A stretch of 64,000 bases of DNA from Terebella lapidaria (Eukaryota > Annelida > Polychaeta > Terebellida > Terebellidae). The DNA lies in contig OX424568.1 of assembly GCA_949152475.1 (NCBI GenBank), positions 22,419,667-22,483,666 on the forward strand. The letters run 5' to 3'. The position numbers and the translations under genes were made by a program. Below, in pieces: positions 405 to 56,180 of the stretch (positions are counted from its first letter, which is position 1; every line of letters begins with the position of its first letter). The notes beneath the pieces were generated by a model. That model was not told where the DNA came from. It saw only the letters and a program-made list of their open reading frames with translations, and did not search any database.

Positions 405-870
405 ATACTGATACTTTGTTTCTATTGCAAAATGTTGCATTTTATGTTTGTTATTGGTATCATCAAAATTTGGCTATATTGGTGGTAATAGATTGATTCC
501 TACATTCATACCACTGAGCCGGTGTCACTGCTGGTGGACCTTAATTCTGTCCCCGAGGATACCATCAACTCAGTAGCCTTCTGGCTTGTGATTAGGTACT
601 CATGTACTTGTCATATATCTATTCCATAGGGTCTGTTTCGGATTTGTAAATTATTTACATAGGTTGTTGTGCAGTTGTATACTAATTCCATCAGGTGTAC
701 AGTAGAAACAACTACATTTACCACACTGTCTGCCCCTGAGGACGCCGGTGTGTCTTTTGATGAAGTATTTGGTCGGGCTTTGTTTCTATTGCAAAATCTT
801 GTATTTTATGTTTGTTATTGGTATCATCAAAATTTGGCTATATTGGTGGTAATAGATTGATTCTTACTGT
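405..870 (+). repeat. Hammerhead-type repeat, head-to-tail partial dimer
   Basis: A 3' part-unit (about 409-517) is followed by a full unit ending near 870. The phrase CTTTGTTTCTATTGCAAAAT recurs with an offset of about 363 bp, so the unit length is about 363 bp. The full unit holds GCCC (732-735), CTGAGGA (736-742), GGTC ending at 774 and GGGC (775-778). The two tetramers can pair as stem I of a hammerhead around a GUC cleavage triplet. The upstream part-unit begins just after the position that corresponds to the cleavage site. The GAAA box is not perfect (GAAG), so activity is doubtful. Related copies lie across the window. Hammerheads in tandem repeats are known from Penelope-like elements and retrozymes; assignment here is inference. 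Confidence 0.7.
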
Positions 871-1182
871 ATAACTGTTTCAATTTATGTTCGTTTAGGT
901 TCTAGTGAGAGATCCTCTGAAATGGGCTAAAACGTGAAATTTTTTCGTTCCAAGACTTCCAATCAATCATCAACATGATCAATAAGACATTGTGCAATTT
1001 GGAATATAATTTCTGGATTGAACATTCTGTTCAGACTCTCAGCCTTGAAACAGTCAAAGGAATTTTACATTTCAGCCCCTGTGGCTGTTCAGAACTCCAA
1101 AAATCAGAGTGTTGCCTTTCTGCTTACAGATGATGTCAATCTTCAACGGTGACTTTGACAGGGTCAGCCATATCCCCAGAAA
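871..1182. other. No gene recognised
   Basis: Non-coding spacer between the hammerhead-type repeat and a foldback element; nothing specific seen. Confidence 0.4.
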
Positions 1183-1771
1183 TTAGACTATACTCTGATT
1201 TTTCTAACTCGTTTACACAGTTTTTCGCTGATATTTTTGCGATGCTAAATGCTATTGTTCTATAACTTGACACACTTCACCTGGGAGTCAAACGGCAATC
1301 ATTTACCGAATTTCAGATTTCTATCATGAAAATTGAAAAAGATGGCAATCTACCCCAATGGTAAATTTAGCCTTGTCATTTTATTTCTGGGTCCGCACAC
1401 AATTTCGTGCATTTGCTCGTTTTTGTAGTAGTGCAATCTTTCAAAATCAACATGTTTGTCTAGGATACACCCCGATGTGTCATCTGGTCTAAAATTACAA
1501 CAAAACTTCGAATCCTGGTGGATGTAAACAGGATCAAATCCTCAAATAAGCTCAGATTCTCGAGATCCCGTTTTTGGGCGAAATTTATCATTGGGGTAGA
1601 TGGCCAACTTCTTCAATTATTGTGATAGAAGTCTGAAATTTGGTAGAAAATTGCCGTTTGTCTTCGAGGTGAATTATGCCAAATTATCAAACGATACCAT
1701 TTAACATCGCAAAGATATCGTCAAGAACCGGTGTAAAGAAGTTAGACAAATCAGAGTATAGGAGTGCACCT
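1183..1771. mobile_element. Foldback MITE with ~185-bp inverted arms
   Basis: The left arm (about 1185-1368) and the right arm (about 1581-1771) are diverged inverted repeats. Both outer ends read CTATACTCTGATTT, and both arms share the inner phrase ATCTACCCCAATG, read outside in. The spacer of about 210 bp has no coding sign. No clear target duplication was found. The size, long arms and lack of an ORF fit a non-autonomous DNA element. A related half-copy appears near 20.63-21.05 kb. Confidence 0.65.
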
Positions 1772-3205
1772 AATACAAATAAAAAAGAAATTGGTATGGA
1801 TCATTCTGGTTTCAGTCCTTTGCTTTTTGCATTGCTGCTTTATTATAAATACCGTCAGTCTCTCAATATTGGGTAACATTTGTATAAGATGTTAGATTGT
1901 CATTAATATGTGCATGTGGATGTATACCGGTAACAAAAATTCTACTGTTATTCTCAAATAGGCAAGGCTGGCAGGGCAAAGAGGGAAAACCGAAGAAAAG
2001 ACAAGTGGAAAAGTCATCAAAGAAGGAGAATAAAAGTTGTGAGTAGAAATTCCATGGCTGGATTGAGTTCAAATGTGAAAGATTGAGCCAATTTTTTTTT
2101 TACAAATATGTAAGTGAATGAGAAACTACTCTACATGCTGTTTAAGGATTGGTTCCCATTGCTTTGTGAACAGTTCTCCAAATAGAGGCCAAGTTGGTGA
2201 ACATGGTGAACCTGAATCGCGAAATTAAGAAGTCGATGAATCCTAATGGCTTGGTGAGGGGAAGAACAATTGGCTATAAGTCACATGCATTCCTGATGTG
2301 TCGTGCTGTATGTTTGAAATGCAATGTTATATACGAATAAATTTGATAATAGGGGCAATACCATTAATACATGGAATAAAAATGCACCAGACATAACTTT
2401 TTTTTTGACTACACAAAGACCAAAAAACGACTTATTTGCTCATTGATTGGAGCGAAGCACTCTTAATTAGAAAGCTTATGAAAAATTCACCATCAACATT
2501 ATTATTTTCAGGATCTCAACACGTGTCTGGACTCGATAGGACAGTTGCAATCCTAACCGATGACAGCCCGTTCATTGGGAAAGCACCGAGACATAATAAC
2601 CACCATCAAATAAGTAAACACAATACTTTAACATGATGGTTATTCCACAAAAAGTATTCCGAAACTTATGCGGACAGGGTAGTTTTCATGAACTAGTGAT
2701 TAATCTATTTTGATCAGTATAGATTGAAATGAACACCACTGTGTTCGTTATTGATACAGACATATGATACATATTATCAAGTATGGCCTGAGAGAGTGAC
2801 ATTTCTATTATTCCGTGCTTCTATCTAGACTACTTTCTCTTCAAACTTGATTTAACATAATTAGCATCGGAGAGTGTAGTACACTTTTTGTTAATAAAAA
2901 CAAAATAGCTGGATAATAGGTTCCTTGTCTTTAGTTATGAATGTAATAGATATACAAAATCTTTAACATTGTTGTACTTGGCATTATATCGAGGAACACT
3001 ATTGTTTACCACACTTTTAATATCAATCGTCACTTTTGATGGCAATCATGACATTCAACCCCACATAGATCTGCGTAATATTCAATGTTGTGCAAATGGA
3101 GACGATCCCCAACATTGGCGCCATCTGCCAGTCAAAACCGGCACAGCAATATTCTGATGACGTTTTCACCATTTTGACCTGAAAACATGACACTATCAAT
3201 AGAAA
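1772..3205. other. Gene-free stretch
   Basis: Over 1.4 kb of AT-rich DNA with only short frames. Nothing resembles a known protein, RNA gene or element end. Confidence 0.45.
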
Positions 3206-4020
3206 TAAATACGAATGCCAGTGGGTAGTGAACGTGGGAACAAATACATTTCAGCTGCAGTAGATCAATTCACAGAGTGGATCAAGTGTTTTACTGTTCC
3301 GGATCAAACCGCCAACGTAGTAGCTCAAGCATGAGTGGACAATTTCTTTTGGTAGGCTAGGTATCCCAGTACATATCCACTCCGACCACAGTAGATTTGG
3401 GAGGAAGTATTTCAAGGCCCGTGTCGCATTCTGAAGACCAAAAAAACCAGAAATACGCCATATCATATTAAAGGGTTGTTGAAGAACCTCAGTAAGGCTC
3501 ACGAAGTAGCTAGGAGGCATTTGACAGGTAATCAGAAGCGACGAAAGAGATATCATGAACATAGGGTCAACGAGAAACAGTATGAACAAGGTGATTTGGT
3601 TTGGGATTTGGCTCGCAAGACTGGGTAAGTTCTTAATTAAAAACAATATGAGTAGGTCCCTTTATTGTGACCAATGTCCGTTCACCTGTACTGCGCAAAG
3701 TTGAAGATAGGACACAAAGTTTTATCTAACACCATGATAATCTAAAGCGCTGTTCTGATCGGGAAATTATATTATGGGTACGTAGTAAGCAGTATAACCT
3801 TATAGGTGACGTCATTAATGATACACATGAAGTTGATGATGTGAATGATGTCGCCTCTATGGATGTCATTTCAGATAATGTCGCCTCTATGAATATCGTC
3901 TCGGGTGATGTCGCACCTTTGGCCATCATAGATTCAACTGACCTAAATGACAATGACGTAGAACAGAAAGATGATGCAGGTATTGCAGCTGATGTTGTAG
4001 TCCAGACCTGATTAGGCATG
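3206..4020 (+). mobile_element. Gypsy (Ty3-type) LTR retrotransposon fossil A, 3' pol part
   Basis: Conceptual translation shows the integrase core phrase AAVDQFTEWIKCF near 3250-3290. It is followed by the downstream integrase region (about 3480-3630, with KAHEVARRHL and EQGDLVWDLA) and a C-terminal stretch with VRSPVLRKVED near 3680. These match the integrase and its C-terminal GPF-type region in metazoan Gypsy elements. Gag, protease, reverse transcriptase and both LTRs are not recognised. The copy is an old, broken fragment with at least several breaks. It lies on the same strand as fossil B and about 3 kb upstream of it; they may be separate insertions of related elements. Confidence 0.75.
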
Positions 4021-4660: not shown

Positions 4661-4945
4661 TTAACACATTTAACACAAGTAAATTTAAATATTCTAGGTT
4701 CTTTCAATATAAGGAGAATTCTTTCAGAAGAGGGAAGTATGCTGTACATGTGGATCGCAAAATAAATTCATATCCAATATAAAGACGGTGTTTGGCCTAA
4801 CCTCTGTTCAGAGTGGATCAATGAAGATCAATTAGTCAGCATGGAAACAACCCAAAGATCCACGAACATCCTTCGGTCGAACGAGTGGTCAGTTCATCTC
4901 CCTAGTGAGCATGCGCGCCCGACCCAGGAGTGCCGCTAGTCAATA

Positions 4946-5128
4946 GGGCCTGTAAGTCACGTGCTGTCACGGTATGATTCTGGTAACCAACAAGCATACA
5001 CCTTTTGTGTTATCTGAGTAATTTGAGTTCTACATGGAGTTTTACTTATAATAAACAAAAGGTGTATATTGGGAATATGTTTGTTGGTAACCAGAATCAC
5101 AGCGTGACGGCACGTGACATACAGGCTC
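4946..5128. mobile_element. Palindromic MITE, copy 1
   Basis: The left half starts GGGCCTGTAAGTCACGTG and the right half ends CACGTGACATACAGGCTC. The arms pair over about 60 bp, through the phrase TTCTGGTAACCAACAA, with an AT-rich centre of about 50 bp. The ends are flanked by TA on both sides (4944-4945 and 5129-5130), as for Tc1/mariner-type MITEs. There is no coding capacity. E-box-like CACGTG lies in both arms. Confidence 0.7.
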
Positions 5129-5161
5129 TATAAATACAGTCGGCTAGCTGTCTACCGGGGG

Positions 5162-5445: not shown

Positions 5446-5763
5446 TCTACCGGGGGGGGGGGGGAGTCCACGGAACAAATAACACATTTAACACAAGTAA
5501 ATTTAAATATTCTAGGTTCTTTCAATATAAGGAGAATTCTTTCAGAAGAGGGAAGTATGCTGTACATGTGGATCGCAAAATAAATTCATATCCAATATAA
5601 AGACAGTGTTTGGCCTAACCTCTGTTCAGAGTGGATCAATGAAGATCAATTAGTCAGCATGGAAACAACCCAAAGATCCACGAACATCCTTCGGTCGAAC
5701 GAGTGGTCAGTTCATCTCCCTAGTGAGCATGCGCGCCCGACCCAGGAGTGCCGCTAGTCAATA

Positions 5764-5946
5764 GGGCCTGTAAGTCACGTGCTGTCACGGTATGATTCTG
5801 GTAACCAACAAGCATACACCTTTTGTGTTATCTGAGTAATTTGAGTTCTACATGGAGTTTTACTTATAATAAACAAAAGGTGTATATTGGGAATATGTTT
5901 GTTGGTAACCAGAATCACAGCGTGACGGCACGTGACATACAGGCTC
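5764..5946. mobile_element. Palindromic MITE, copy 2
   Basis: This is the same element as at 4946-5128, carried along in the second copy of the 818-bp duplication. It is not an independent insertion. Confidence 0.7.
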
Positions 5947-5979
5947 TATAAATACAGTCGGCTAGCTGTCTACCGGGGG

Positions 5980-10250: not shown

Positions 10251-10316
10251 TGATTTCAAATTTGAGACAGTACAACTAAATGCACTGAACGCACCCACTT
10301 TGAATTACAGATCACC

Positions 10317-11631
10317 ATGGCTCCACGCAAACTCGGTCTGTTCAAATGCAACGAGTGTGAATGGAAAGGAGAGAGGTCGGCCGCCCTAGAACACTTCGCC
10401 CGGGTACACTGTACCGTCGCCACCGCTGCGTATACTTGCAAGGGATGTAATTTCACAGCCGGAACCGAACGGAGCCTTGAGAAACATCTTACCACACCCA
10501 GACATCGGGAAAAAGCCAAGCGGAGGACGGATAACTTCTTGCGTCGTGCAGGAGCAGGGAAAATTGTGGAACAACAGGAGATTCTAGACAACTTCATCGA
10601 ACAGCTCAAGAATCGGCCATGTGATCCGGTAGCTGCGGCTATGAAATTCTCGGGAATAGATGGGAAGCACTCTACGGCTGAAGCCGGAATCCTTCCCACT
10701 CCGTCCATTTGTCATCCTCATCTTATTCGTCCTCTTCCGCCACAACTTCACCGGACCAATGCCCAGACCAGGAGGTAGATATCATCGTTGTAGAAAAAGA
10801 GGAATACCTGAAAGAAGAGCATCTGAAGTCAGTCGACAATCCTCCTCTGAAGAGGAAACTTGATGTAGCACCAGTCCCCAGTGTTAAGCCCAAACGACCT
10901 TGTTTACCCGGTCTTGAGACACTCGACCTGGAAGAGGAGTCCAAATTTATACCCGATTACGATGAGTCGGAGGTCCCACCCAAACCACGTCCATTGATGC
11001 AAACCACCGGCACAAGCTCACCTGCTTTCCCAACATCCACGGAAAATGCCATCCTGGAAGTGTCACGGGTAATCCAGGATGAGTTTAAGTCCTTGACGTC
11101 ACTCCCCGTAACATCAAATATGGATCCTGGACACCTTAACAATGTCATCCAGAAGTTCATCGTCACGAACAACAATCTCGTCGACTTGACCTCCAAGGTG
11201 AATCTTCTGGCCAACCGGCATCAGCACATGCCTCTTCAAACAGTTTGATGTCGGATCTGCGGAGAGAACTCACCGCCCTAAATCACAATCAAAACAAAGT
11301 GTATTCAGTGACAGTTAGTTTGGAAAGAACAATGTTGCAGATGAGCTTGTCCATGAAAGCACACGCGTCAAAGATGGAGACAATTGCCACTGCCATCACC
11401 AGCAGTCTGCATGCTGTCAACGATGTACTCCAGCGAACTTCAGTCCCGGCACCTCCAGTTCACCCCCAGCGCAATGGCCCATCCATTCCTGCTCAACCTT
11501 TGCCTTTCCAGCCCTCCACATCAGGACCAGCCATCCGGCTCAGCGGGATGCCAATGCCCTCACTGAGGGAGCGGCTGTCAATTCACTTGGACACTGTAAC
11601 CAAACAATCACAGTTTGTGTTGAGTGAGTAG
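10317..11631 (+). pseudogene. Two-finger C2H2 and coiled-coil ORF region, probably element-linked
   Basis: Starting at ATG 10317, the first part shows two C2H2-like fingers: CNEC with HFARVH, then CKGC with HLTTPRH. A Lys/Arg-rich stretch follows (HREKAKRRT), which suggests nucleic-acid binding. Later parts show a Ser-rich run, a basic stretch (PPLKRKLD), the acidic motif KFIPDYDESE near 10943, and helical, heptad-like sequence up to a Pro-rich end before the stop at 11629-11631. The region is not carried by one continuous frame, so it is broken or spliced. It begins about 70-100 bp after the pol remains of Gypsy fossil B on the same strand, which suggests an accessory ORF after pol. A host zinc-finger gene remnant is the alternative. 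Confidence 0.45.
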
Positions 11632-11820: not shown

Positions 11821-12417
11821 GGTAGTCCGCTCCAAACAGTGAGCGAAGGGGGTTAAAGGGTTTTCTAAAATAAATACCTGTATCAACATAATCTAGAGCT
11901 TCAAAATGATATATTTTATAGAGTAACTGTTCAGCATCCTAAAACTGAAAAGAAAATAGGGGGTCACCGTATCCGTTCGCACGGAAAACACGATGCAAGA
12001 AGTGAATATGGACAAAAAAAAGTGCAAAAATGCCAGAATTTAAGTCATTTTAGGTAAATATGTGTGATTTTGATCGAATATGTAGAAGAAACGAGCACGG
12101 TGACCCCCTATATTCTTTTCAGTATTAGGATGCTGATCATTTACTCTATAAAATAATGTCATTGTGAAGAGATAATATTCCATCAGGTGTACAGTAGAAA
12201 CAACTACATTTAACACACTGTCTGCCCCTGATGACGCCAGTGTGTCTTTGGATAAACTATTTGGTCGGGCTTTGTTTCTATTGCAAAATGTACTTTATGT
12301 TTGTTATTGACATCATCAAAATCTGGATGTATTGGTGGTAATAGATTGATACCTACATTCATGAAATGATCTTTAAATTTCGACTCTCCGTTACCTCACT
12401 GTTTGTAGCGGACTACG
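11821..12417. mobile_element. MITE with TTAA flanks and internal palindrome
   Basis: The terminal inverted repeats GTAGTCCGCTCCAAACAGTG (left) and the complement of CACTGTTTGTAGCGGACTAC (right) differ at only about one position. TTAA lies immediately outside both ends (11817-11820 and 12418-12421). An inner pair of arms, with GGGGGTCACCGT on the left (about 11960) and its complement on the right (about 12105), makes the body a large palindrome. TTAA duplications are typical of piggyBac and Kolobok DNA transposons. A hammerhead-type repeat (12174-12364) is nested inside the right half and is absent from the mirror-image left half. Confidence 0.75.
12174..12364 (+). repeat. Hammerhead-type repeat nested in a MITE
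   Basis: A 5'-truncated unit starts near CCATCAGGTGTACAGTAG and ends near TGATACCTACATTC. It holds GCCC (12224-12227), CTGATGA (12228-12234), GGTC ending at 12266 and GGGC (12267-12270). The GAAA box is replaced by TAAA. Stem I complementarity is perfect over 4 bp. Confidence 0.7.
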
Positions 12418-13845: not shown

Positions 13846-13917
13846 GTAAGTATCAATCTATTACCACCAATACAGCCAAATTTTGATGATTCCAATAGCA
13901 AACGTAAAATACAAGCA
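13846..13917 (-). repeat. Hammerhead-type repeat, 3' end fragment
   Basis: The minus strand matches the terminal part of the repeat, from the CGTTTGCTATTGG region to AATAGATTGATACTTAC, without the hammerhead core. It abuts the AAGGTCA MITE that follows. Confidence 0.65.
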
Positions 13918-14920
13918 TGTATCATTTCCTATATATCCACAATTGAATTCTAAGCTGTAAAGTTGACAATAAATGAGATATGCGCCATATTGCGCTCTGA
14001 CCTTGAAAATGAGGTCAAAGGTCATATTCAAGGTCTTGAGAACATTCAGTTTTTTATCATTTCTAAAATGTCCACAATTGATTCCTAAGTTGTAAAGTAA
14101 ATAATAAGCGATATATTAGCCATTTTGTGCATTGACCTTGAAAATGAGGTCAAAGATCAAATTCAAGGTCATCAGAATATTCAGCATATATCATTTCTTA
14201 TATGTCCACAATAGATTCCCAAGCTGTAGAGTAAATAATAAGCGAGATATTAGTCATTTTGTGCTCTGATCTTGAAAACGAGGTCAAAGTTCAAATTCAA
14301 GGTCACGAGAATATTCAGCATATATCATTTCCTATATGTCCACAATTGATTCCTAACCTGTGAAGTCGATAATGAGCGAGATATTAGCCATTTGTGCTCT
14401 GACGTTGAAAATGAGGTCAAAGGTCAAATTCAAGGTCATGAGAATATTCAGCATATATTTCCTATACTAGTATGTCCACAATTGATTCCTAGTCCCTAAT
14501 CTCAATATTGAGTGAGATTATGAAAGTCCCATTTGGACCCCGCAGTAAAACATCAAAATGGCCGCCACACGCAGACCGGCGATTCAAGAGCATCGAAACT
14601 TATACACATTATAATGATACATGAGGGGAACATTTTGAAACCAAAATATCAAAACTGATCAGACAGTTTTGAGAAAATAATTTTTGAAGATGAAAAACAG
14701 CCATTTTCGGCATAAAAATGGCCGCCAAAACTGCATGAATGATTCAGTCAAAAAAATGAAAAAAACGTCTGGGAGTATTGACCCAACAGATATTCACACA
14801 AATTTATGATCAATTTCATCAGCCTGGAAAAAAGATAAAAAATGTTAACAGATTATGTGGCGGACGACGACGGACGAAAAACCACGACAATAGCTAATTG
14901 GCCCTTATGGGCCGGTAAGC
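13918..14920 (+). mobile_element. AAGGTCA MITE 1, with about five ~135-bp tandem units
   Basis: Units beginning TATCATTTCCTATATGTCCA recur near 13918, 14054, 14188, 14323 and 14455. After the repeats come AAAATGGCCGCCA phrases, a GACGACGACGG stretch and the right terminus GCCGGTAAGC, followed by TA (14921-14922). The left terminus is missing; compare the copy at 21605, which begins GCTTACCGGC after TA. It is non-coding. Most units contain AGGTCA-type half-sites, and two have an exact AGGTCAAAGGTCA (14012-14024 and 14414-14426). This is a non-autonomous DNA element with internal tandem repeats. Confidence 0.75.
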
Positions 14921-15299
14921 TAAAAATGGAAACAATCGTTATTTATTGAGCCATCTGACAATTGAGAGATAAATATGAATCTGAAAGAGAAATCATTCAC
15001 AAGTATACAATTGGACGATAAATAGAAGTCTGAACAAGAAATCAGTTATAAGTGTACAATCGAGAACGGTATACGTTACAAGGAGTAACACACAAACTGA
15101 TAAAGTGAGATAGTCACAAGGGATACAAAACAAAGAAATATCCAAGTACTGGAAAAATACATAAAGCTCAATTTGGGAACAGAAGTTCGGAGTTACAATA
15201 AATAAACAGACACAGGAATAGGATAGAAACTTCCAAATTAGACAATGGATCTATTAGGTTAGTAAACTGCTAAATTCAAATACAGATTACCGTAACAGA

Positions 15300-17780
15300 C
15301 GTGGAATCAATACCCAGTATTAAGTATTCCGAGCAAACAAAACAGGGTCCGTCATCCAATCTCATATTCCGGGGACAGAAAGTCATATCAGGCATACGAA
15401 GTGAGAGAAAAAAAAAAAAAAAAAAAATAAATAAATAAATAAATAAATAACAGGGAAACTCACGAACCCCCCAAAATGGCCATTAGGAGGTGAAATCAGG
15501 TGTTCCGGAAAGAGTGAGCATTTCCTGCCCCACTAGTGGCACCCGTCATGAATTCCCCAAAATTAACATGAAAATAGATCTAGTTGCATGGCAGACATGG
15601 ATTTGCTGTATTTGTCAACCAGATCATGATGACGTCCATAGAATTTCTTAAACGCAGCTATAAGTCTTGGTAAAACATATCCTTGTCGCAGCAGTTTAGA
15701 GACTAGCTGGGCACTTCGATAGAGAAAGTCCTCATATTTGCAACTAGCTCTGGAATAGCGTATAAGTTGAGAAACAAACACACCATATGCCGGTGACATA
15801 GGAATGTTGCTGCTTAGAAAAGGGAAATTGACTATGGAAAAATTGAAATCATCACGTTTGTCATATAATCTAGTTGACAGGTTAGAATCATTATCAATCT
15901 CCAACCTCAGGTCTAGATAGTTGGAAAAATTAGCGGAGTCTGTAGTATCTTTAATTTCAAGTTCCTTAGGATATATGACATCCAAATAATCACCAAACTT
16001 GGGATTATTTAGCGACAATACATCATCTATGTATCGGAAAGTGAAATTAAAATTACATGTTAGTTTCTTAGAACCTCCTCGTTGTAAATGTTGGATAAAA
16101 TCTGATTCATATGAGTATAAAAACAGGTCTGCCAATAATGGTGCACAGTTTGTACCCATGGGAATACCAATAGTTTGTTGAAATATTCGACCACCAAATT
16201 CCACAAAAATATTATCAATCAGAAAATTAACCATATTTATCACATCTATTTCAGTATATTTGTATGGGGCATCAGAGTCGCCTTTAACAAAATAAGCGGT
16301 ATTATATTTAACTACAATATAGTGGTACCGACGTTGTCCTTTTTTAGAGAAAAATGAATTATTGATTAGTTTTTTAAGCTGAGACTTCAGTTCAGAATGA
16401 GGTATAGTTGTGTACAAAGTGGAGAAATCAAATGTTTTGATAGACGTTACTTTTGAAAGTGTGTGAGCATGTAGGTATTCCAATAAAGATTTGGAATTTT
16501 TTAATATCCACATTTGGTTTACACCACTTCTAGAATAGATGGTTTCAGAGTACTTTTGGAGACCCTGTTTAATTTTAGACAATATAACAGTTAATATTTT
16601 TGAAAGGGCTTTGGTAGAACATGACGCTGAACCTGAAATATATCTTTGTTTGTGTGGATTTTTGTGCAACTTTGGGATCCAATATAAGTTTGGTAGATTA
16701 GAATCTTTACATGAGGTAGTAATACCAAACGAATGCAATACGGACACATGATTTGATAAGATATCCTGTTTGGGCACGGTAATGGCTTGGTATGTACTAT
16801 TGGAATTAGTATTGTTGGCAATACCCAGTTCGTTAAACAGACACTGTATATAGTATGCTTTACAAACAAAAACAACATTATTAGAAGCTTTATCTGCAGG
16901 GACAATGACGAACCTTTCTTTAAGTTTCAACAAACTATTAGTAACCACGGGATCATTGAAGACAGAGCTGTATTTAGTACTAACTGACTTTGACAAAACA
17001 TTAATGCGTTTGTTTACCAATGACCTAATCTGTTTGACCCATTCTGACAGAGAATCAGTTTCTGCCTTTTCTCGCTTTGTCCATTTTCTGGCATGCTCCT
17101 CAACTGCATCCATGATTAACTTGAAATTGTATCTCCATGAAAATGACATGGGCTCTCTATATTTGGGACCTTTGGACAAAATGTCTTTCAATGATTCATT
17201 CTCCACTATATTGAGGTCGCCTGAAATAACATGCCCAACTGGATCGTGTATGAACGGAGAGTTAATGCAAGTGCAGGAGGGTGGGTTATGTAAGAGATCA
17301 TCAATATCCAAATCATTCAATGTTTGTTTGTAGTTGAATATCTTGGAAGCAACAGATTTGGTATATGAGTAGGATATAGATGGAGCGGCCGTGTCAGTGA
17401 AGTATGATGGTACCTGGGACTGAACAGACTTATGATGTAATATATTACTGATGTTGACTGCATCGATACCTTTATTGGCAAATTTTATCTTCAGAAAAGA
17501 CCGTTTGGGTGGTATATATTCGGAAGTCTGTGTTGGCTTATAAAGCCGATGATAAACAATATCCATGATAATGGAATACAGACGAAATTCATAGCTATTG
17601 GTATTTCTGATATAGTGGGTAGGACATTGGTCCTCCAGTTCTTTAAGTTTAACATGAGGTATGGCAAATAATTTAGTGCGAACATAGTGTAGTCCTAGTG
17701 GTTGTTTCAATATTCCAAGTAGATCATCAAAGGAAATACTATGAATAGATGGTCGATTAAAATGTCGTTGTCCATGGCTT
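15300..17780 (-). mobile_element. Penelope-like retroelement, main copy
   Basis: The element is oriented on the minus strand. It contains the reverse transcriptase ORF (15563-17710) and a 3' non-coding part down to about 15300 that is shared with fragments at 21.1 and 22.7 kb (phrase AGTATTCCGAGCAAACAAA on the plus strand). A poly(T)/TTTA tract on the minus strand (15408-15450) sits inside the 3' part. The frame is open upstream of the first ATG to about 17780, so the true 5' end of the coding region may lie higher. No GIY-YIG endonuclease motif is visible after the reverse transcriptase or in the open upstream stretch. Confidence 0.8.
15563..17710 (-). CDS. Penelope-like reverse transcriptase (715 aa)
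   Basis: This is an RNA-dependent DNA polymerase that would copy element RNA at a target site in the nucleus. Reverse transcriptase motifs are in order: motif A as FDFSTLYTTIP (about residues 425-435), motif B as IPMGTNCAPLLADLFLYSYE (about 514-533), and motif C as RYIDDVLSL (about 558-566), whose Asp pair is part of the catalytic triad. LYWIPKLHKNPHKQR lies upstream, as usual in Penelope-like elements. The thumb region ends with FYGRHHDLVDKYSKSM. The ORF stops soon after the thumb, so the C-terminal GIY-YIG nuclease of canonical Penelope is absent. I chose ATG 17710, but in-frame codons continue upstream (SHGQRHFNRPSIHSISF). The ORF has no internal stop, which makes it the youngest-looking coding element in the window. 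Confidence 0.9.
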   Translation of the reverse strand: MKQPLGLHYVRTKLFAIPHVKLKELEDQCPTHYIRNTNSYEFRLYSIIMDIVYHRLYKPTQTSEYIPPKRSFLKIKFANKGIDAVNISNILHHKSVQSQVPSYFTDTAAPSISYSYTKSVASKIFNYKQTLNDLDIDDLLHNPPSCTCINSPFIHDPVGHVISGDLNIVENESLKDILSKGPKYREPMSFSWRYNFKLIMDAVEEHARKWTKREKAETDSLSEWVKQIRSLVNKRINVLSKSVSTKYSSVFNDPVVTNSLLKLKERFVIVPADKASNNVVFVCKAYYIQCLFNELGIANNTNSNSTYQAITVPKQDILSNHVSVLHSFGITTSCKDSNLPNLYWIPKLHKNPHKQRYISGSASCSTKALSKILTVILSKIKQGLQKYSETIYSRSGVNQMWILKNSKSLLEYLHAHTLSKVTSIKTFDFSTLYTTIPHSELKSQLKKLINNSFFSKKGQRRYHYIVVKYNTAYFVKGDSDAPYKYTEIDVINMVNFLIDNIFVEFGGRIFQQTIGIPMGTNCAPLLADLFLYSYESDFIQHLQRGGSKKLTCNFNFTFRYIDDVLSLNNPKFGDYLDVIYPKELEIKDTTDSANFSNYLDLRLEIDNDSNLSTRLYDKRDDFNFSIVNFPFLSSNIPMSPAYGVFVSQLIRYSRASCKYEDFLYRSAQLVSKLLRQGYVLPRLIAAFKKFYGRHHDLVDKYSKSMSAMQLDLFSC

Positions 17781-17799
17781 CGTTTCCTACGTTTATACT

Positions 17800-28080: not shown

Positions 28081-28870
28081 TTCAGACGAGAGTCTGAAAG
28101 GTTGCATCTGTTCATGTGATATGGAAGTGAGGTCTTCGACGTGTCTGATTCCAGCATTAAGGTGTTTAAGCAATTCTTAGTGTCACGCAAACCATACCGT
28201 GTAAGTTTTTGTTCATATCTCCGAGCATTCTCAGCAAATCTATTCAAAATTTGGTCCGTGGTTGCTACGTGTTTTTGTAATAGATTATATGATGTTATAA
28301 CCAGGATTTATTATGATAATCCACGAGTATAGACAACTGAATGTAAGTATCAACATATTACCACCGATACAGTGAGATTTTGATGATGCCAATGACAAAC
28401 GTAAAATACAACATGTACGCAACAGATAACAAGGTAGAACTTTCTCATGACGGTGTTGTTTGTGATGATACTTGCACAACAATAAGTTCATATGTTCGTG
28501 ATCACGAACCGAGAATTAATTTTCCGAAATTTACTGCAAATAATGTGAAAAATCGTGTACAATATACAAGCAAGTTTATCCAGATGCTTCTTTTCCTGGT
28601 AGGCCTAACATCGACGAAAGTCTGGCGTATTTCAAAATCGTAAGCCGCATATGTTATTGCATTAACGGGAAAGGAACGATCGGCGTTTGTAGTGAATTGT
28701 TCATTGCGAATTAGAGTAAATCAAGCAACATCCTCTCTCTCTCTCGTTTATTCCTATTTCGACCCAAATAGCGTGTCCTGTTTGTTCCTCTTTTTCCAAC
28801 GAGGAAAAAAGGTGTGATACTGATTATAAACGGATTATTCGGTGGCGAATAATATAACGGCGCAGTGTAC
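28080..28870. repeat. Diverged segmental duplication pair 2, copy b
   Basis: Partner of 20080-20620. It carries a hammerhead-type fragment (28345-28420) that copy a lacks. Confidence 0.5.
28345..28420 (-). repeat. Hammerhead-type repeat, 3' end fragment
   Basis: The plus strand starts GTAAGTATCAACATATTACC and runs to CAAACGTAAAATACAACATG, the complement of the 3' terminal part of the repeat. The core is absent. Confidence 0.65.
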
Positions 28871-31239: not shown

Positions 31240-32660
31240 TACGTTTGAGTAATCCCTATGCATTGTCTAGATTCAGAAAATGATTATCCCGCACGGCTGG
31301 GACTGATAAAATGGCACTTAAAAAGATATTCATCATCTCAATGAAACCGTCGTACCAAAAACATTTTAATTGTCACTCTCATGGGTAGTAAAACAGAAGG
31401 TGATAATTCGGCATCACATTTCTGAAAGATTTTGATATTAGGTTTTTTATTGGCATCATCAAAATTTGGTTAACAGTGGTAATAGGTTGATACTTACATT
31501 TCTACCACTGAGCTGGTGTCACTGCTGGTGGACGTTAATTCTATCCCCGAGGATACCATCAACTCCGTAGCCTTTTGGCTTGTGATTGGGTACTTATGTA
31601 CTGGTCATACACCTATTTCACGGGGTTTGTTTCGGATTTCTAAATTGTTTTGATAAGTTGTTGGGCAGTTGTACACTAATTCCATCTGGTGTACAGTAGA
31701 AACAACTATAATAACACACTGTCTGCCCCTGATGACGCCAGTGTGGCTTCAGATATGAATGTTTGGTTGGACTTTGTTTCCATTCTGAAAGATTTTGATA
31801 TTAGGTTTTTTATTGGCATCATCAAAATTTGGTTAACAGTGGTAATAGGTTGATACATACATTGCAATTGATATTTGAAGCTTGGATTGTATATGATTGC
31901 GGGAGGGAGCGTTGTTACTTTAGTTCCATTATCCCGAAATATGCATCATGCAGCACAGTTATTATATTTATTGCTTTTGTTAGCATTATTCACTCAACAT
32001 GCCCCCGAAGCTAGCTAGTCGATGCCAGGATGCTAATACTATGGTATCATATTGGCTGTTCGAATATTGTCATTCGGGGTCAAATTTTACTTCTCAACTG
32101 CTTTTGTCACGATTCCCCTGAAGTCAATTCAGAGAAATATTATATCGTCAATAGGAACGATATAGTGTTGCTTGATAACCCCTATTCCGAATCGTGCACT
32201 GTCACTTGAAATGGGTAATTTAACTAGTTTTGTCACTTCTGAATCAAGTCTATCAACAATTTTGAGGCTATTCAGATCACAAATAAATTAAAAGATAATC
32301 AACTGCTAACAAGACGGTGAACAAATACCACTGGTACATGTAAAGACTGATTTGGCCAAATATGTCAAACAGCGAAACCAGATGAATATATGATATTTGG
32401 AACATTCGCAGTAGTCATCCGCTCCTTTATTTCGAAGTTGAGTGTGGTTGTCCGTGTAGAAATTTGAATTGCGCCCTTCCAATGTTTGAGATGCAATCAT
32501 ATCTCACTACATGGTGCGAGTATCAGATTTCAAGGATACATTATCAAGACAATTCCCCTGTCCAAGAACAGGTAAAAATTCGATCCAATCAGTTTGATTT
32601 TGAACTACCATTGCGTATTGTGGAATACAATTAACGAACGGGTGTTCCGGAGACAGCAGG
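31240..32660. repeat. Segmental duplication pair 3, copy a
   Basis: This segment matches 39.81-41.29 kb in the same orientation. Shared phrases include CATTGTCTAGA, AACATTTTAATTGTCACT, GCCCCCGAAGCTAGCTAGTC, TTTTGAGGCTATTCAGAT and AACTACCATTG. It contains an inserted hammerhead-type dimer that is missing from copy b, and therefore shows an empty site there. No gene recognised. Confidence 0.7.
31412..31862 (+). repeat. Hammerhead-type repeat dimer inserted in duplication copy a
   Basis: A 3' part-unit (about 31417-31500) is followed by a full unit. TTCTGAAAGATTTTGATATT recurs with an offset of about 365 bp. The core reads GCCC (31725-31728), CTGATGA (31729-31735), GCC-AGTGT-GGC as a possible stem II (31737-31747), GAAT near 31757 and GGTTGGAC (31765-31772). 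This copy belongs to a slightly different subfamily. The insertion limits follow from comparison with 39.96-40.02 kb, where it is absent. Confidence 0.75.
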
Positions 32661-36669: not shown

Positions 36670-38640
36670 CGTACGAAAATAACGAGATATGGCCGAAAAT
36701 GTCGACTCAGCAGAAAAAAAATTTGGCCCAGGGACAAGTTCACCCAACATACCCCTAAGACATGTTTGCCTAGTGTCATGAATCCGAAAATAATGTCCGT
36801 TTCGCTCTACGACGCAATGTTTTCGAGAAATGGCCAAAAATGAAAAACGCCGACTCCGCAAAAGAAAAAATTGGCCCAGGGCCAAGTTCACCTAAGATAC
36901 ACCTAAGACATGTTTGCCTAGTGTCACGAGTCTGAAAATAACATTCGTTTCACTCTACGACGCACGGTTTCCGAGATTTGGCCGAAAATGAAAAACGCTG
37001 ACTCAACAACAACAAAATTGCCCAGGGCTAAGTTCACCCAACATACCCCTAAGCAGGCCTGGGGTAATAGTAATATGTAATTGCAATAGTAATAGTAACG
37101 ATTACATTTTTCCAAGTAATAGTAATATAATAGTAATCAGCTTTTCCAACAGTGGATGTAATAGTAATTGTAATAGTAATATATCTCAATTGTAATATGT
37201 AATATATATTACAATTGCTATTATTTCAGATCATTTACTCAATACCCTTGGCAGGATTATTTGGGGCTATTCTTTATTAAGGCACTCACTTTGTTCTTGT
37301 GGCTGGTCAGACAAACACCAACTCTCTTTGTAAATGAGGCATTCCACCTCCCCCACCTCCCTCCACCCCCCATGCCTTGATTAACTGTTGGAGAGAGTGA
37401 TTGCGTAATCAGTTTGATGGCAATCGAGGCATCAATAGGCAGCCACTGTGTTTATCATACAGTCAATTCAATAAATCACCACATTAATTGTTTGATGATC
37501 TTGTTCGCAACTTCAGAGGTTCAGACTCAAAAAGCAATGTGATCATAAGTACAGGTGTTGTAAAATGTTATATCACCTATATCAATTCGATAATACAGGG
37601 CCGGGGTGGAGTTGCCTTAAATAATAATTCTTATATATTTGAAACCAAACACGCAAAAATACGGTGTGCGAATGTGTGCTATAGAATGATACACTCATGA
37701 GTCTGTTGATCATGATAGTGATTTAATCTTGTAATCGTTCCCCAATGAATGCGATGGCAACTTTGTTTTATGAGTATATTAATTGTTGCTGACTTGTGTT
37801 GAACAATATTTGTTGTGCACTTTGAATTTGAAAAGTAATAGTAATAGTAATTGGTGCAAAAGTAATAGTAATATAATAGATTACTTTTCAAAAATGAAGT
37901 AATTGTAATAGTAATAGTAATAGGTCAAATACTGAAGTAATAGTAATATAATAGATTACATTTCAAAGTAATTGACCCCAGGCCTGCCCCTAAGACATGT
38001 TTGCCTAGTGTCACGAGTCCGAAAATAATGTCCGTTTCGCTCTACGATGCACCGTTTCCGAGATATGGCCGAAAATGAAAAACGCCGACTCAGCAAAAAA
38101 AAATTTGGCCCAGGGCCAAGTTCACCCAACATACCCCTAAGACATGTTTGCCTAGTGTCACGAGTCCGAAAATAATGTCCGTTTCGCTCTACGACGCAAT
38201 GTTTTTGAGAAATGGCCAAAAATGAAAAACGCCGACTCCGCAAAAAAAAAAATTGGCCCAGGGCCAAGTTCACCTAAGATACACCTAAGACATGTTTGCC
38301 TAGTGTCACGAGTCTGAAAATAACATTCGTTTCACTCTACGACGCACGGTTTCCGAGATTTGGCCGAAAATGAAAAACGCCGACTCAACAACAAAAAATT
38401 TGCCCAGGGCTAAGTTCACCCAACATACCCCTAAGACATGTTTGCCTAGTGTCATGAAATCGAAAATAACGTCGGTTTCGCTCTATGGCGCACCGTTTCC
38501 GAGACATGGCCGAATATGAAAAACGCCGACTCCACAAAAAAAAATTTGGCCCAGGGCCAAATACCCCTAAGACATGTTTGTCTAGTGTCACGAGTGCGAA
38601 AATAACGTCCGTTTCGCTCAGATGCACCGTTTCTGAGATA
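36670..38640. repeat. 148-bp satellite array, interrupted by a hAT-type element
   Basis: The phrase AAGTTCACC recurs at 36736, 36884, 37030, 38118, 38266 and 38412, giving spacings of 146-148 bp once the insertion is removed. Each monomer holds ACCCCTAAGACATGTTTGCC, GTCACGAGTC and GAAAAACGCCGACTC. Blocks of about three monomers before and after the insertion correspond more closely than neighbours do, so a higher-order repeat exists. A diverged copy lies at 56.34-56.64 kb. Confidence 0.85.
37054..37986. mobile_element. Non-autonomous hAT-type element (933 bp) with exact 8-bp target duplication
   Basis: The terminal inverted repeats are CAGGCCTGGGGT (12 bp perfect). The 8-bp CCCCTAAG lies directly outside both ends (37046-37053 and 37987-37994). 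Neighbouring satellite monomers show the same sequence with one CCCCTAAG, that is, the empty site. Subterminal regions are dense in TAATAGTAAT motifs, which could bind a transposase. No transposase ORF is present. The TIR start CAGG.CTGGGG and the 8-bp duplication are diagnostic of hAT. Confidence 0.92.
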
Positions 38641-38972
38641 TGCATTGAGCCTTAAGGATGACTCACCAAAATTGTTTTCGGCCCCTGGGTCAAATTTCGT
38701 TTGAGGGATTGACCCCATAATCGATAGGGTTCCTCTGCGACACTATATCAACATATATGTCAAGTTTGAGAATGGTAGCACAAGTATTTTTTGATTTACC
38801 ATCCGGAAACCATTTGACACAAAATTCATCCTCACGGACTAACCGGACCTCGGAGCCGGCTCCAAAACAATAGGGTTCATCTATGTAATATATGTGATAA
38901 CTGGTGAACATTTCTTGAAGATTCGTCAAGGCGTTCTTGAGTTATCGTCCGGAAACCGAAAAGTGAAAAAAA
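38641..38972. repeat. Tail segment linked to the 148-bp satellite
   Basis: The sequence around CATTGAGCC, TTGACCCCATA and GAGTTATCGTCCGGAAACCG recurs in diverged form after the satellite copy at 56.64-56.96 kb (GGGAGCATCA, TTGAACCCATA, GAGTTATTGCATGGAAACC). Satellite and tail therefore travel together as one element. Confidence 0.6.
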
Positions 38973-39029: not shown

Positions 39030-39783
39030 CTTTTTTTTGACCTTTGACTTCACTTCCAAGGTCAGATCACAAAATGGCTAAAATCTCGCTTATGATCGAC
39101 TTTACAGCTTACAAACCAATTGGGGACATATAGGAAGTGGTATATGCTGAATATTGTCATGACCTTGAACTTGCCCTCATTTTCAAGGTCAGAGCATAAA
39201 ATGGCTAATATCTCGCTTATTATCAACTTTACAGCTTAGGAATCAATTGCGAACATACAGTAATTCTCAAGGTCAAAACACAAAATGGCTAAAATCTCGC
39301 TTATGATCGACTTTACAGCTTACAAACCAATTGGGGACATATAGGAAGTGGTATATGCTGAATATTGTCATGACCTTGAACTTGCCCTCATTTCCAAGGT
39401 CAGAGCATAAAATGGCTAATATCTCGCTTATTATCAACTTTACAGCTTAGGAATCAATTGCGAACATACAGTAATTCTCAAGGTCAAAACACAAAATGGC
39501 TCAAATCTCGCTTATGATCGACTTTACAGCTTACAAACCAATTGGGGACATATAGGAAGTGGTATATGCTGAATATTGTCATGACCTTGAACTTGCCCTC
39601 ATTTTCAAGGTCAGAGCATAAAATGGCTAATATCTCGCTTATTATCAACTTTACAGCTTAATCATCAATTGTGAACATATAGTAAAGGATACTTGCTGAA
39701 TATTGTCTTGACCTTGAATTTGATCTTTGACCTCGTCGGGACAAAATGGCTAATATCTAAGAAGTAAAACATTGTCCGGTAAC
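39030..39783 (-). mobile_element. AAGGTCA MITE 4 with a 211-bp higher-order repeat
   Basis: Read on the minus strand, it starts with GGTTACCGGAC (complement at 39773-39783), as MITE 3 does. ATAGGAAGTGG recurs at 39130, 39341 and 39552, a period of 211 bp made of one ~135-bp monomer and one shortened monomer. The three higher-order copies are nearly identical, so they are recent. The far end is missing at 39030. Confidence 0.75.
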
Positions 39784-45843: not shown

Positions 45844-46195
45844 TTTATTATTAAGTTCTTTATGATGAAATAAGGATGTGAAACATAAAATGTGTAAATG
45901 AAGTGTTACAAAGGGTATGTTCGGTGTCATGGTGTTAATGTACTTAGTCTACATATATCCCCATAGGTTTAGTGTACGTTACATGATTCTCCACATAACA
46001 TGGACAATTTACTCAACCGAACATTTAATGCACCCGTTTATTACCCAGAATGTGCCACCAATTAACATCGTTTTTTTAAAGAGAAAATCTACATTGTGTG
46101 GCTATATGAAACTGAATCAATAAGTCATTCATTATATTCTTGGATAATGAAGAACAAGAACCGAGGAAGAATATTCTGGTTGTAGATATCTGTCG

Positions 46196-46310
46196 GGCTT
46201 ATTTTTATTCCGGAGATGCTGTATTCACGTTTGTTATTTACATCATCAACATCTGGTTGTGTTAGTGGTAATAGGTGGAAACTTAAATTCCTGATGATTA
46301 TGGCTATAAC
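46196..46310 (+). repeat. Hammerhead-type repeat starting at the cleavage position
   Basis: Begins TGTCGGGCTT, that is, at the GUC/GGGC junction, and runs through CGTTTGTTATTTACATCATC to GGTGGTAATAGG-like sequence. A separate copy follows at 46550. Confidence 0.6.
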
Positions 46311-46549: not shown

Positions 46550-46682
46550 GCCAGTGTGTGTCTTTCGATATACTATTTGGTTGTGCTTTGTTTCTATCGC
46601 AAAATGTTGTATTTTACGTTTGTTCTTGTCATCATCAAAACCTGACTGTATTGGTGGTAATAGATTGACACTTACATTCACA
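46550..46682 (+). repeat. Hammerhead-type repeat, 5'-truncated within the core
   Basis: Starts at GACGCCAGTGTGTGTCTTTC, inside the core just after CTGAT, and ends at TTGACACTTACATTCAC. Confidence 0.65.
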
Positions 46683-48672: not shown

Positions 48673-48778
48673 CATAGGTTGGGCTTTGTTTCTATTGCAA
48701 ACTGTTGTGTTTTACGTTTGTTATTGGAATCATCAAAATTTGGCTGTGTTGGTGGTAATAGATTGATACTTAAATCCA
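48673..48778 (+). repeat. Hammerhead-type repeat starting at the cleavage position
   Basis: Begins GGTTGGGCTTTGTTTC, at the GUY/GGGC junction, and ends AATAGATTGATACTTAAATC. The core upstream of the junction is absent. Confidence 0.65.
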
Positions 48779-49683: not shown

Positions 49684-50073
49684 CAGTTTTTATGTGACTG
49701 TTTTAATCATTCTTGCTTATAATATGTGACGGGTAAAAATTGGGGGACGTTTTCTATTTATATACATGTAAGTATCAGTCTATTACCACCAATAGTCAGA
49801 TTTTGATGATACCAAAAACAAACGTAAAATATTACATTTTGGAATAAAAACAAAGCCCGACCAAATAGTCTATCCAAAGACACACTGGCGTCATCAGGGG
49901 CAGACAGTGTGTTAAATGTAGTTGTTTCTACTGTACACCTGATGGAATTAGTATACAACTGCCCAACAACTTATGAAAATAGTTTAGAAATCTGAAGCAA
50001 ACCATTTTACAGTTTTCATGTGACTGTTTTAATCATTCTTGCTTACAATATGTGATGGGTAAAAATTGGGGGA
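49684..50073. repeat. ~65-bp direct duplication flanking a hammerhead-type insertion
   Basis: ATGTGACTGTTTTAATCATT through GGTAAAAATTGGGGGAC occurs at 49684-49748 and again at 50009-50073 with few differences. Other copies of the segment (54.39, 60.53 and 63.6 kb) have only one. The stretch between contains the reversed hammerhead-type repeat, so this looks like an unusually long target-site duplication. Confidence 0.7.
49770..50000 (-). repeat. Hammerhead-type repeat, reverse orientation
   Basis: On the minus strand the core reads GCCC-CTGATGA (complement 49891-49901) and GGTC-GGGC (complement 49855-49862). The copy runs from about AGATTTCTAAACTATTTTC to GATTGATACTTACA. The GAAA box is degenerate (TAGA). 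Confidence 0.75.
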
Positions 50074-51741
50074 CTACTTCGGCTGTGGGATTGTGAAATC
50101 TTGATAGCATTTCGGCGAGGTTCTTGTATCCAGTTTGATGGTATTCATTAAAGATCATAATGTGGTCATTAATATAACGTTCTTTCGAAACAAGAAGATA
50201 TATGTTAAACAATACCGCTGAAAATTTTTCCTCATCCACACGTTAAAAAAAGTTGATTTTCCTTGAACTATTTTTCGTGTCAAATTAGGAATACATTTCC
50301 ATCCGCTGAAAAAAAACATTTCTCGCTCGCTTTTACTTTTCATGAACGTCCTATGCCTGCAAGAATCTGAACCCAATAACGGAAGGTTTCATGAACTACA
50401 GGATGTTTTCCGTGATGAAAGCAGATGTGTTGCAGGGATATGATTTGTAATGGTAGAGTGCATCCCATGGTGGACCTTTTGCATGGCTTATTAATGCATG
50501 TGTAATTATTCATACGAACTACCATACTTTGTAAATCAGGGGAACTGGAGTTGGTATGTATTTACAAGTACAATCACATCGAATACGACATAATCCAACC
50601 TTCAACTTCTGAATGTGATATGGTTTTGTAAATAGTAACATCATAAAATGGGCGTTGACCACATGACAATGATGATCAATAACCACACCATCTCCTTGTC
50701 AATCTGTCGGTATTTAACGAACAACTATCATTCTTTAGCCACTTCTTCTGGAAGGTACATGTCATAGGCCTAACCCGTCACCAAGTCAGATCGAGTGTCA
50801 GAAATTAATCACACGAACAGACAGATATGTCCTAGTGATCCATCATTTAGTAATTTGACAAAACAAGTGAATGTCTGCAGACCATGCATATAATTATAGT
50901 AGTTTTCAATGGCACGGAAGCAGGTGAACGTTTCATATTTTTACCCTCCCAGTTCTGGCAATAAACGTGTCATAAAACTGTGTTGTAGTATGCAGGCAGT
51001 GTCACCTTATGCATATTTATGCCTCCTATGGTTAAAATACCCCCTCACAGAACGGTGTGCGAAATTATGATTACCCATACTGCAAAGACAGACTCGAAGT
51101 GCCCACCAATATGTCAGACAAAAGCTGAGTCACGGACGGATTCCCTAATGCCCATGTCTTTGACGTATATATCTTCCGTCTGGGGTTAACTTTTATTAGT
51201 CTGCTATTGCGTAGATACAAGGGAATCCCAAGGGACAGGGTGTAAAGACATATGATAAATAATATAAAAGAAGCCTGGTACCTTACGACACAAGTCGAGC
51301 AGAGACAAACGAGTCTGGAGAGACCTATAACATCGAGATAACAACGACCCTGCTGGGAAGAAGGGGCCAATGAATGTGCACTAACGTTGCAATAAATGAA
51401 AATGTATACCCGTGTGAGAACCCCGCTTGGAAAATTAAAAGATTTCCTCCAGTAATGACAGATTTCATTAGGGATACAAAATAGGCATTGACATTGTTGA
51501 GTTTCCTTACAATTTCTAAATTGTTGCATACATATTGTTTTTGGAGGGGCACAAAATGATGTCATATTTGTTTTCCTTCTTTGGTCAAATTCCGCACAGT
51601 GAAATGATAACGCTCTATTGCGCGAAAGGCATGACAAAGTTGTATATTCTTGTGTACTAATTATGGTATTTGTCACGACATGGCGTCTTATTATGGTAAA
51701 TAGCAGGAAAAGTGATGGAAGAATATGTCGATATATGATTA

Positions 51742-51984
51742 AGTCTGTCCCCGAGGATATCATTAACTCAGTAGCCTTTTGACTTGTGATTAGGTACTTA
51801 TGTACTTGTCATAAATCTATTCCATGTTTTTTTTTTCGGATTTCTAGATCATTTTCATAGGTTGTTGGGCAGTTGTATACTAACTCCATCACGTGTACAG
51901 TAGAAACAACTACATTTACCACACTGTCTGCCCCTGATGACGCCAGTGTGTCTTTTGATAAGGTATTTGGTCGGGCTTTGTTTC
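51742..51984 (+). repeat. Hammerhead-type repeat ending just past the cleavage position
   Basis: Runs from TCTGTCCCCGAGGATATC to GGTCGGGCTTTGTTTC. It holds GCCC (51930-51933), CTGATGA (51934-51940), GGTC ending at 51972 and GGGC (51973-51976). It is the complementary part of the unit compared with the copies that start at the junction. Confidence 0.72.
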
Positions 51985-51999
51985 AGATACAATGCAAAC

Positions 52000-55420: not shown

Positions 55421-55674
55421 ACACAACGCACGTGTTTTTTTTTCCACTTCACTGTGGTACACAGAATCTAGTCTAAAGGCAGATAACGGAAAGTTTGTTC
55501 AACCTGAAAATGAAAACCAGCAAAATGAGTTTTCTGCAGTGAATCTTTCTGTCCCATCTATCGTGTATATGCGACCATCACATATATTGAAATAAATATA
55601 TTAAAATAGATATCTTCTTCTTCAATGTGATTAACGGAGAAAGTTATGACATTTTCAGGGAATGCCTCCATGTA

Positions 55675-55890
55675 AATATCAACTTATTTAATACCACGAT
55701 ATTTTGATGATGCCAATAGCAAACCGGAAATACAACATATAATAAAAAAAAACTAAACTGTGTTTCTACTTTACACCTGTTGGAATTTGGATGCAACTGA
55801 CTAACATCATATTAAGATATTTTTAAAATCCGAATCAAACATCATGAAGTACCCAATCACACCCAATTACAAGTCAAAAGGCTATTGAGT
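55675..55890 (-). repeat. Hammerhead-type repeat without core, reverse orientation
   Basis: Matches the flanks of the unit (AAATATCAACTTATTTAATA, CAAATAGCAAACC-like, ACACCTGTTGGAATT, TCAAAAGGCTATTGAGTC), but the stretch with CTGATGA is deleted. Confidence 0.6.
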
Positions 55891-55984
55891 CAATTAGTAA
55901 TTTCACGACGCATACAAGCTTGCATCATTATGTTTAGCTAGTATTTTATCTGGCTAGTAGGCATCTAGGTCAAAGTTAACCACC

Positions 55985-56180
55985 AATGTAAGTATCAATC
56001 TATTACCGCCAATACAGTCAGATTTTGATGATGCCACTAACAAACGTAAAATACAACATTTTGCAATAGAAACAAAACCCTACCAAATAGTTGATTCAAA
56101 GACACAATGGCGTCAGCAAGGGCAGACAATGTGTTAAATGTAGTTGTTTCTACTGTACTCCTGATGGAATTAGTATACAA
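55985..56180 (-). repeat. Hammerhead-type repeat, reverse orientation
   Basis: Closely follows the copy above in the same orientation. The core is decayed: the complement of GCCCTTGCTGACGCC and TTTGGTAGGG replaces the standard motifs. Confidence 0.68.

Follow-up and report, generated by a model that had tools for sequence, protein, structure and literature searches.

The DNA analyzed here is a 64,000-bp stretch of the genome of the polychaete Terebella lapidaria (assembly GCA_949152475.1, contig OX424568.1, positions 22,419,667 to 22,483,666, forward strand), hereafter the window. It harbors copies of a dispersed repeat family on both strands and a 5'-truncated Penelope-like element (PLE). 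A first-pass annotation, made from the letters alone, had grouped 12 of the repeats into one family and suggested that they belong to Penelope-like repeats or retrozymes with a hammerhead ribozyme. We propose that the family lacks coding capacity and autonomy and is probably a satellite of a PLE in which an N-terminal GIY-YIG domain is followed by a reverse transcriptase (RT).

A repeat family with a 363-bp unit

The 12 repeats belong to a single family. All 12 places were matched in blastn and nhmmer searches, and the unit, first put at ~365 bp, measures 363-364 bp (consensus 363 bp; tandem spacing 364 bp). A 22-mer from the 3' end has 11 matches in the window at up to three mismatches, compared with none in 100 shuffles. 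In the whole genome (761.6 Mb in 438 contigs), the 3'-terminal 25-mer has 6,629 exact matches. When two mismatches are allowed, a 23-base pattern matches at 18,974 places, compared with 16 for the reversed control. Loci were picked by similarity or by exact patterns, and the counts given below refer to those samples.

Besides ~311-bp monomers, the family forms dimers and multimers, and in one case an array of ~25 kb. The monomers run from unit position ~53 to 363, without the linker (positions 1-52), and the step within multimers is mostly 363-368 bp. Multimers measure 311 + n x 363 bp or are truncated. The array lies on contig C4 (7135610-7160375) and comprises ~68 units, judged by length. 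Most of its units carry a GGAAAAAC variant where GATAAAG stands elsewhere. The family shares with small retrozymes its non-coding tandem units in the 150-450-bp range and its low G+C. A protein-coding origin of the unit was considered and rejected: one frame looks protein-like, but three translations had no Pfam match and there is no codon periodicity.

A young PLE is the candidate helper

A 744-amino-acid frame in the window (15563-17797, minus strand) matches the RT domain RVT_1 (E = 6.5e-7). Of 60 scored genome matches, the window copy is 100% identical and the others are 97-99% identical. Many copies carry an open frame of ~1033 amino acids, and several stand in tandem with a spacing of 3,347-3,348 bp. 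A GIY-YIG domain was detected in the N-terminal part (E = 1.3e-5), read from a different copy than the RT part. As judged from these sequences, the PLE is young and encodes GIY-YIG and RT in one open reading frame (ORF). Three PLE loci had no ribozyme match in Rfam. At another locus, an apparent truncated PLE is inserted into a family copy.

PLEs with an N-terminal GIY-YIG domain occur in the Chlamys/Naiad clade and have the same domain order as the candidate helper, GIY-YIG and then RT; the present PLE may belong to this clade. We know of no ~363-bp satellite of a Chlamys/Naiad-type PLE. Our literature searches covered titles and the openings of abstracts, with most subscription papers outside reach, and found no such satellite named; on tandem short interspersed elements (SINEs) and rolling-circle reverse transcription, nothing fitting appeared in titles or abstracts.

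The PLE and the family share a junction hairpin

We found that the tandem junction of the PLE matches positions 3-68 of the family unit over ~66 nt. The local score of this match is 230, whereas 300 shuffles gave a mean of 80 and a maximum of 130. The junction was read at one tandem PLE locus (L092) and again at L093, L094, L097 and L099-L101. In sequence, the family is thus tied to an apparently autonomous PLE of the same genome, at the 66-nt junction only. At a further locus, L168, a 3' fragment of the family (ATTGGTGGTAATAGATGGATAC) is joined to the PLE junction or start at a shared TAC.

The consensus of the junction is predicted to fold into a hairpin, in which an outer ACUGAG/CUCAGU helix is followed by GGUGUC paired with (G)RYACC and then by an inner hairpin around GGAY/GUCC. 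Fold stability z-scores are -5.42 for the PLE and -2.27 and -2.91 for two family units. Across 49 aligned sequences (from 52 distinct junctions), 97.3% of cells are paired, compared with 28-61% when the alignment is slid. Four paired sites that differ between PLE and family stay paired, by wobble, in this structure derived from the same alignment.

Copies of both elements can begin at the same site

Many family copies begin within the junction hairpin, at CCCCGAGG^ATACC. The corresponding site, CCCCGCKG^GCACC, is the start of a few PLE copies, with GCACC and A53 at the same alignment position. The family sample came from a search pattern that required only positions 57-87: from 980 genome places, 100 were listed, 73 passed the rule and 40 were fetched, and two with a common flank (L103 and L104) were counted once. 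Among these 39 independent places, 17 have the whole linker; the other 22 start at positions 53-57 (14 places, seven of them at A53), at 52 (one), at 42 (one) or at 1-40 (six). About 4% of random flanks would extend a match by 4 bases through chance. The PLE sample comprised 58 of 74 places, of which 43 match at least 100 bases upstream. Of the remaining 15, two start at ^GCACC, two others start 2 and 6 bases upstream of it, respectively, and 11 start further upstream. A separate apparent 5' hot spot of the family, at positions 222-223, was traced to a single insertion multiplied by its carrier repeat.

The 3' end of the family is sharp, while the 5' end is variable, with the shortest 5'-truncated copies measuring 31-32 bp. 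Element chains end at positions 361-363 in 10 of 11 cases in the window, in 58 of 69 when loci not picked by the 3' pattern are added and duplicates removed, and in 90 of 104 with all loci included. Most matches halted at this end with a query extended 33 bases beyond it. Two loci (L037 and L044) end instead at position 181 (TATACTAAT), perhaps a second, minor RT start.

Some copies are flanked by target duplications, of 13 bp (L056) and 10 bp (L074) in two cases. Duplications of at least 7 bp flank 7 of 78 elements, compared with 2.1% in re-paired controls. These counts, and those within multimers below, exclude duplicate loci and all but one of the copies carried as passengers in another repeat.

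Units of one multimer are more alike than units of different elements

Units diverge by 3.7% within one multimer and by 11.7% between random units of different elements. Rare alleles are shared at 1.25 per 100 bases within multimers, compared with 0.08 between elements. Much of this sharing comes from three pairs of units in the array-like L087, without which the rate is 0.85. One-unit templates, which might be circular, are possible for the multimers.

A probable satellite of the PLE

The shared junction, the tandem habit and the end structure together lead us to describe the family as a PLE satellite. We infer its mobilization by the PLE, the recognition of the hairpin and the form of the template as follows. 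Tandem units would yield an RNA with its 5' end at position 53, or a multi-unit RNA. The PLE protein would recognize the conserved junction hairpin (positions 3-68), which is present also at its own tandem junction, nick DNA and start reverse transcription at an internal site, about 6-12 nt upstream of the hairpin. Such an internal start would place the end of new copies at position 363, ahead of the hairpin, and would leave the linker (1-52) uncopied unless the template has a further unit. The cDNA would halt at position 53, producing 311-bp copies, or elsewhere, producing 5' truncation; either an RNA starting at 53 or an enzyme stopping there would give the 311-bp form. Copying through more units, or round a circle, would give 311 + n x 363 bp, and multimers would require templates with further units, either tandem transcripts or circles.

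Several observations weigh against this interpretation. The likeness between the two elements is restricted to the ~66-nt junction. The 3' untranslated region (UTR) of the PLE shows no similarity to positions 180-363 of the unit (score 112; shuffle mean 109), and the 3' termini have only short strings in common, such as ATTGATTC. Given these two dissimilarities, it is not established that the PLE recognizes the family. The folds of three diverged copies are no more stable than those of shuffles (z from -0.32 to -0.93), and no helix of the hairpin has a compensatory change, with no pair changed on both sides in the 49 sequences. Conservation and stability, seen in the high pairing and low z-scores, thus back the hairpin structure, whereas compensatory change does not. 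Few PLE copies start exactly at the shared site, and a chance match of 2 bases is expected in about 9% of random flanks. That site also lies inside a helix of the predicted fold, an argument against simple cleavage if the RNA folds in this way. Furthermore, 11 of 69 chains have their 3' end elsewhere, two of them at position 181, and most elements have no clear target duplication. Within our sample, the nearest unit is a sister from the same multimer for 30 of 51 units, with three ties and 18 units closest to another element; genome searches on a one-template origin were likewise mixed (L030 for, L025 unclear, L088 against). Finally, reverse transcription of the Anolis PLE starts downstream of the hammerhead (PMC11167929), whereas the copies described here have their end upstream of the hairpin. 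This difference in geometry, together with the mixed outcome of the sister comparison, slightly lowers our confidence in the PLE satellite and raises that in mobilization by a long interspersed element (LINE).

Other readings of the junction and of mobilization

The 5' end could be made by a transcription start, by an RT block or a nuclease, or by a non-hammerhead ribozyme. In the first case, the junction would be a promoter with position 53 (A; G in the PLE) as the start, and the hairpin would be incidental or would serve the nascent RNA. This would refine the PLE satellite reading without excluding it, and we regard it as a plausible possibility that falls somewhat short of an even chance. 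The start is a purine in both elements, ~50 conserved bases lie upstream of it, and 5' ends are scarce just upstream of position 53. However, the inverted repeat flanking the start (ACTGAG...CTCAGT) and the pairing kept at four changed sites are not promoter features. G precedes A53 in one (L137) of the eight copies that extend to it, which is no cap-like excess of G, although a G of the unit and an added G are indistinguishable.

Alternatively, the family might be a SINE moved by a LINE, with the PLE likeness a borrowed fragment that has no role in mobilization. Like the fixed 3' end and the 5' truncation, the occasional target duplications would suit a LINE as well, and TTAC occurs within the first 10 flanking bases of 8 of 78 elements, perhaps as a tail repeat. 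However, the shared segment sits at the tandem junction of both elements and holds the preferred 5'-end site. An octamer tail was also considered and was dropped because TTACATTC repeats do not occur in the genome as an exact 30-base run; no systematic search was made for a LINE with the 3' end of the family. We consider mobilization by a LINE unlikely.

A more speculative view is that the junction hairpin (ACUGAG-NC-GGUGUC...UGGNGGAY-loop-GUCCCCGNNG ^ RYACC-AUCAR-CUCAGU) represents a new class of non-hammerhead self-cleaving ribozyme, which would replace the hammerhead in a lineage of GIY-YIG PLEs and in thousands of copies of their satellites and would make the common RNA 5' end. We think this doubtful.

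Spread as satellite DNA, by unequal exchange or DNA circles and without retroposition, would suit the long array on C4 but is very improbable for a family whose insertions are dispersed, have differing flanks and 5' truncation, share a single 3' end and in some cases show target duplications.

The proposed core is not supported as a hammerhead

The first-pass annotation had placed a hammerhead-like core in the unit, with GCCC and GGGC as stem I. The CTGANGA, GGTC and GGGC motifs exist as it described and are well conserved, and the GAAA box is indeed degenerate in the window copies. The consensus middle of the core is CGCCAGTGTGTCTTTTGATAAAGTATTT, in which the majority reads GATAAAG, not GAAA. 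Among 78 GCCC-CTGANGA...GGTC-GGGC cores, eight have any GAAA and none has GAAA together with a 3-bp stem II. Genome copies with GAAA do occur, at 147 places (65 of the 100 listed are in the C4 array), yet the GAAA loci scanned gave no hammerhead match: seven such family loci were without a ribozyme match, and the eighth (L055) overlaps L054. The core motif has no exact match in IMG/VR.

No family copy tested scored as a hammerhead in Rfam/Infernal searches, in which cmscan was run without a true hammerhead as positive control. At the gathering cut-off, there is no Rfam match across the window. At E <= 10, there are 12 matches in the window, none to a ribozyme and none within the family, and one chance match in 405-900 that is not a ribozyme. 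In 10 further loci, hammerhead matches, all below the cut-off, were confined to three loci recruited by that model, which have no family copy. A genome-wide search with the hammerhead model RF00163 gave three sub-threshold matches at loci without a family copy, a weak negative because only 73 of 196,455 first-look candidates were scored. No other Rfam RNA was found in the family copies scanned. Our own hammerhead descriptor, which recovers two synthetic hammerheads, had one match in 593 kb (both strands), which is the chance level (0-1 in 10 simulations).

Stem I itself finds no support in covariation: across 76 copies (of 82 reference copies), no pair is changed on both sides and there is no excess over shuffles. 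When the consensus is folded as a circle, GCCC pairs upstream (GGGCAG/CTGCCC, probability ~0.64) rather than with the downstream GGGC (0.01), and the GGGCAG/CTGCCC helix has no covariation either. Two further ideas about the core were rejected. The cells of a pseudoknot around it (CACACTG...CAGTGTG) do pair, yet there is no covariation and its probability is 0.01 in the circular fold. Homology with the PLE 3' UTR was suspected and then dropped on the score given above.

Chain starts do not pile up at GGTC^GGGC. Among 96 non-duplicate chains, from loci partly picked by similarity, four start at positions 261-275 (263, 267, 272 and 274) and none at 269, compared with 15 at 51-57. The core is therefore not supported as a hammerhead by the tests made on these sequences. 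Both outcomes that the first-pass annotation had named as refuting it, no copy scoring as a hammerhead and no supporting covariation (examined for stem I), were observed within the reach of the searches. Of the suggested membership of retrozymes or Penelope-like repeats, what survives is a small tandem retroelement; what does not is the hammerhead, which lacks an Rfam ribozyme match, covariation, and GAAA with stem II. Thus, a classical retrozyme, in which a degenerate type I hammerhead cuts GGTC^GGGC and RNA circles are reverse transcribed, is scarcely credible here, well as the unit size, the dimers to long arrays, the low G+C and the absence of long terminal repeats (LTRs) fit animal retrozymes (PMC7229834).

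Relation to known systems

Animal non-LTR retrozymes have non-coding units of 150-450 bp, arranged as dimers to long arrays, with low G+C and no LTR, primer-binding site or polypurine tract, and have been proposed to be moved by PLEs (Cervera & de la Pena 2020, PMC7229834). Compared with that account, the family is alike in unit size, tandem habit, low G+C and the lack of these three features. It differs in that no hammerhead was found, a different structured motif lies at the junction, and its sequence visibly connects it with a single PLE in this genome. Because the defining hammerhead was not found, we do not class the family as a retrozyme despite its retrozyme-like working.

Reverse transcription by the Anolis PLE Poseidon starts inside the template RNA in vitro (PMC11167929). 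The family resembles Poseidon in its tandem and partial-tandem copies with an upstream partial unit, in 5' truncation, and in an internal RT start, here proposed, that sets the insertion ends. However, the Anolis PLE carries its hammerhead where the ORF starts and has a C-terminal GIY-YIG domain (PMC11167929), whereas the PLE described here has its GIY-YIG domain at the N-terminus, the family is without an ORF, and both have a non-hammerhead junction hairpin. In other PLEs, minimal type I hammerheads lie near the tandem junction (pseudo-LTR; PMC7761336). The present motif likewise lies near the junction but is without CUGANGA and GAAA.

The mover of small animal tandem retroelements and the purpose of the PLE hammerhead are both open questions (PMC7229834, PMC7761336). 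Here, a large family of small elements and a young PLE in the same genome have one common junction motif without a recognizable hammerhead, and copies of both can start at the same site. With this shared motif, the identity of the helper can be tested directly, and the two elements provide a natural example of something else possibly standing in for the hammerhead.

Other features of the window and of sampled loci

Table 1. Repeat copies and related features in the window. Unit positions refer to the 363-bp consensus.
Position	Strand	Feature	Method
414..867	+	Family copy of ~1.25 units, unit 272-363 followed by 1-361, 3' end ...GATTGATTCTTAC	blastn, nhmmer
508..576	+	Junction hairpin (unit 2-70) common to PLE; 5'-end site of 311-bp copies between 558 and 559 (GAGG^ATACC)	
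732..778	+	Core of the first-pass annotation, GCCC-CTGAGGA...GGTC-GGGC, in copy 405-870; tests made do not support a hammerhead	
12177..12358	+	5'-truncated family copy, unit 179-363	nhmmer
13846..13914	-	5'-truncated family copy, unit 293-361	nhmmer
15294..17795	-	5'-truncated Penelope-like element with RT frame; likely helper, not a repeat copy	
28341..28426	-	5'-truncated family copy, unit 279-363	nhmmer
31423..31862	+	Family copy, diverged subfamily, ~1.2 units	blastn, nhmmer
31502..31570	+	Junction hairpin region of the diverged subfamily copy	
46189..46287	+	Diverged 5'-truncated family copy	nhmmer
46550..46677	+	5'-truncated family copy; start by eye at unit ~238 (GCCAGTG); weak nhmmer extension to 46502	
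48677..48774	+	5'-truncated family copy	blastn, nhmmer
49766..50004	-	5'-truncated family copy, unit 123-363	nhmmer
51739..51990	+	Family copy from unit 35, broken off at unit 286	nhmmer
55670..55890	-	Old rearranged family copy, neighbor of the 55986..56180 copy	blastn, nhmmer
55986..56180	-	5'-truncated family copy, unit 169-363	nhmmer

Some family copies travel inside other repeats. An insertion of ~510 bp is a passenger of another repeat family, with constant flanks, at L059, L064 (shortened), L065, L067, L069, L070, L072 and L082. The window also holds other tandem repeats, with periods of 134, 172, 148 and 84/211 bp (13914-14491, 21735-22243, 35630-36223, 36696-37053, 37987-38642 and 39057-39733). 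The 134-bp tandem family is a landing site of the studied element, as at locus L031.

A frame at 10266-10775 (plus strand) has weak matches to C2H2 zinc fingers, below the cut-off. Two inverted repeats resembling microRNA precursors (4945-5129 and 5763-5947), both below threshold, have equal scores and stand 818 bp apart.

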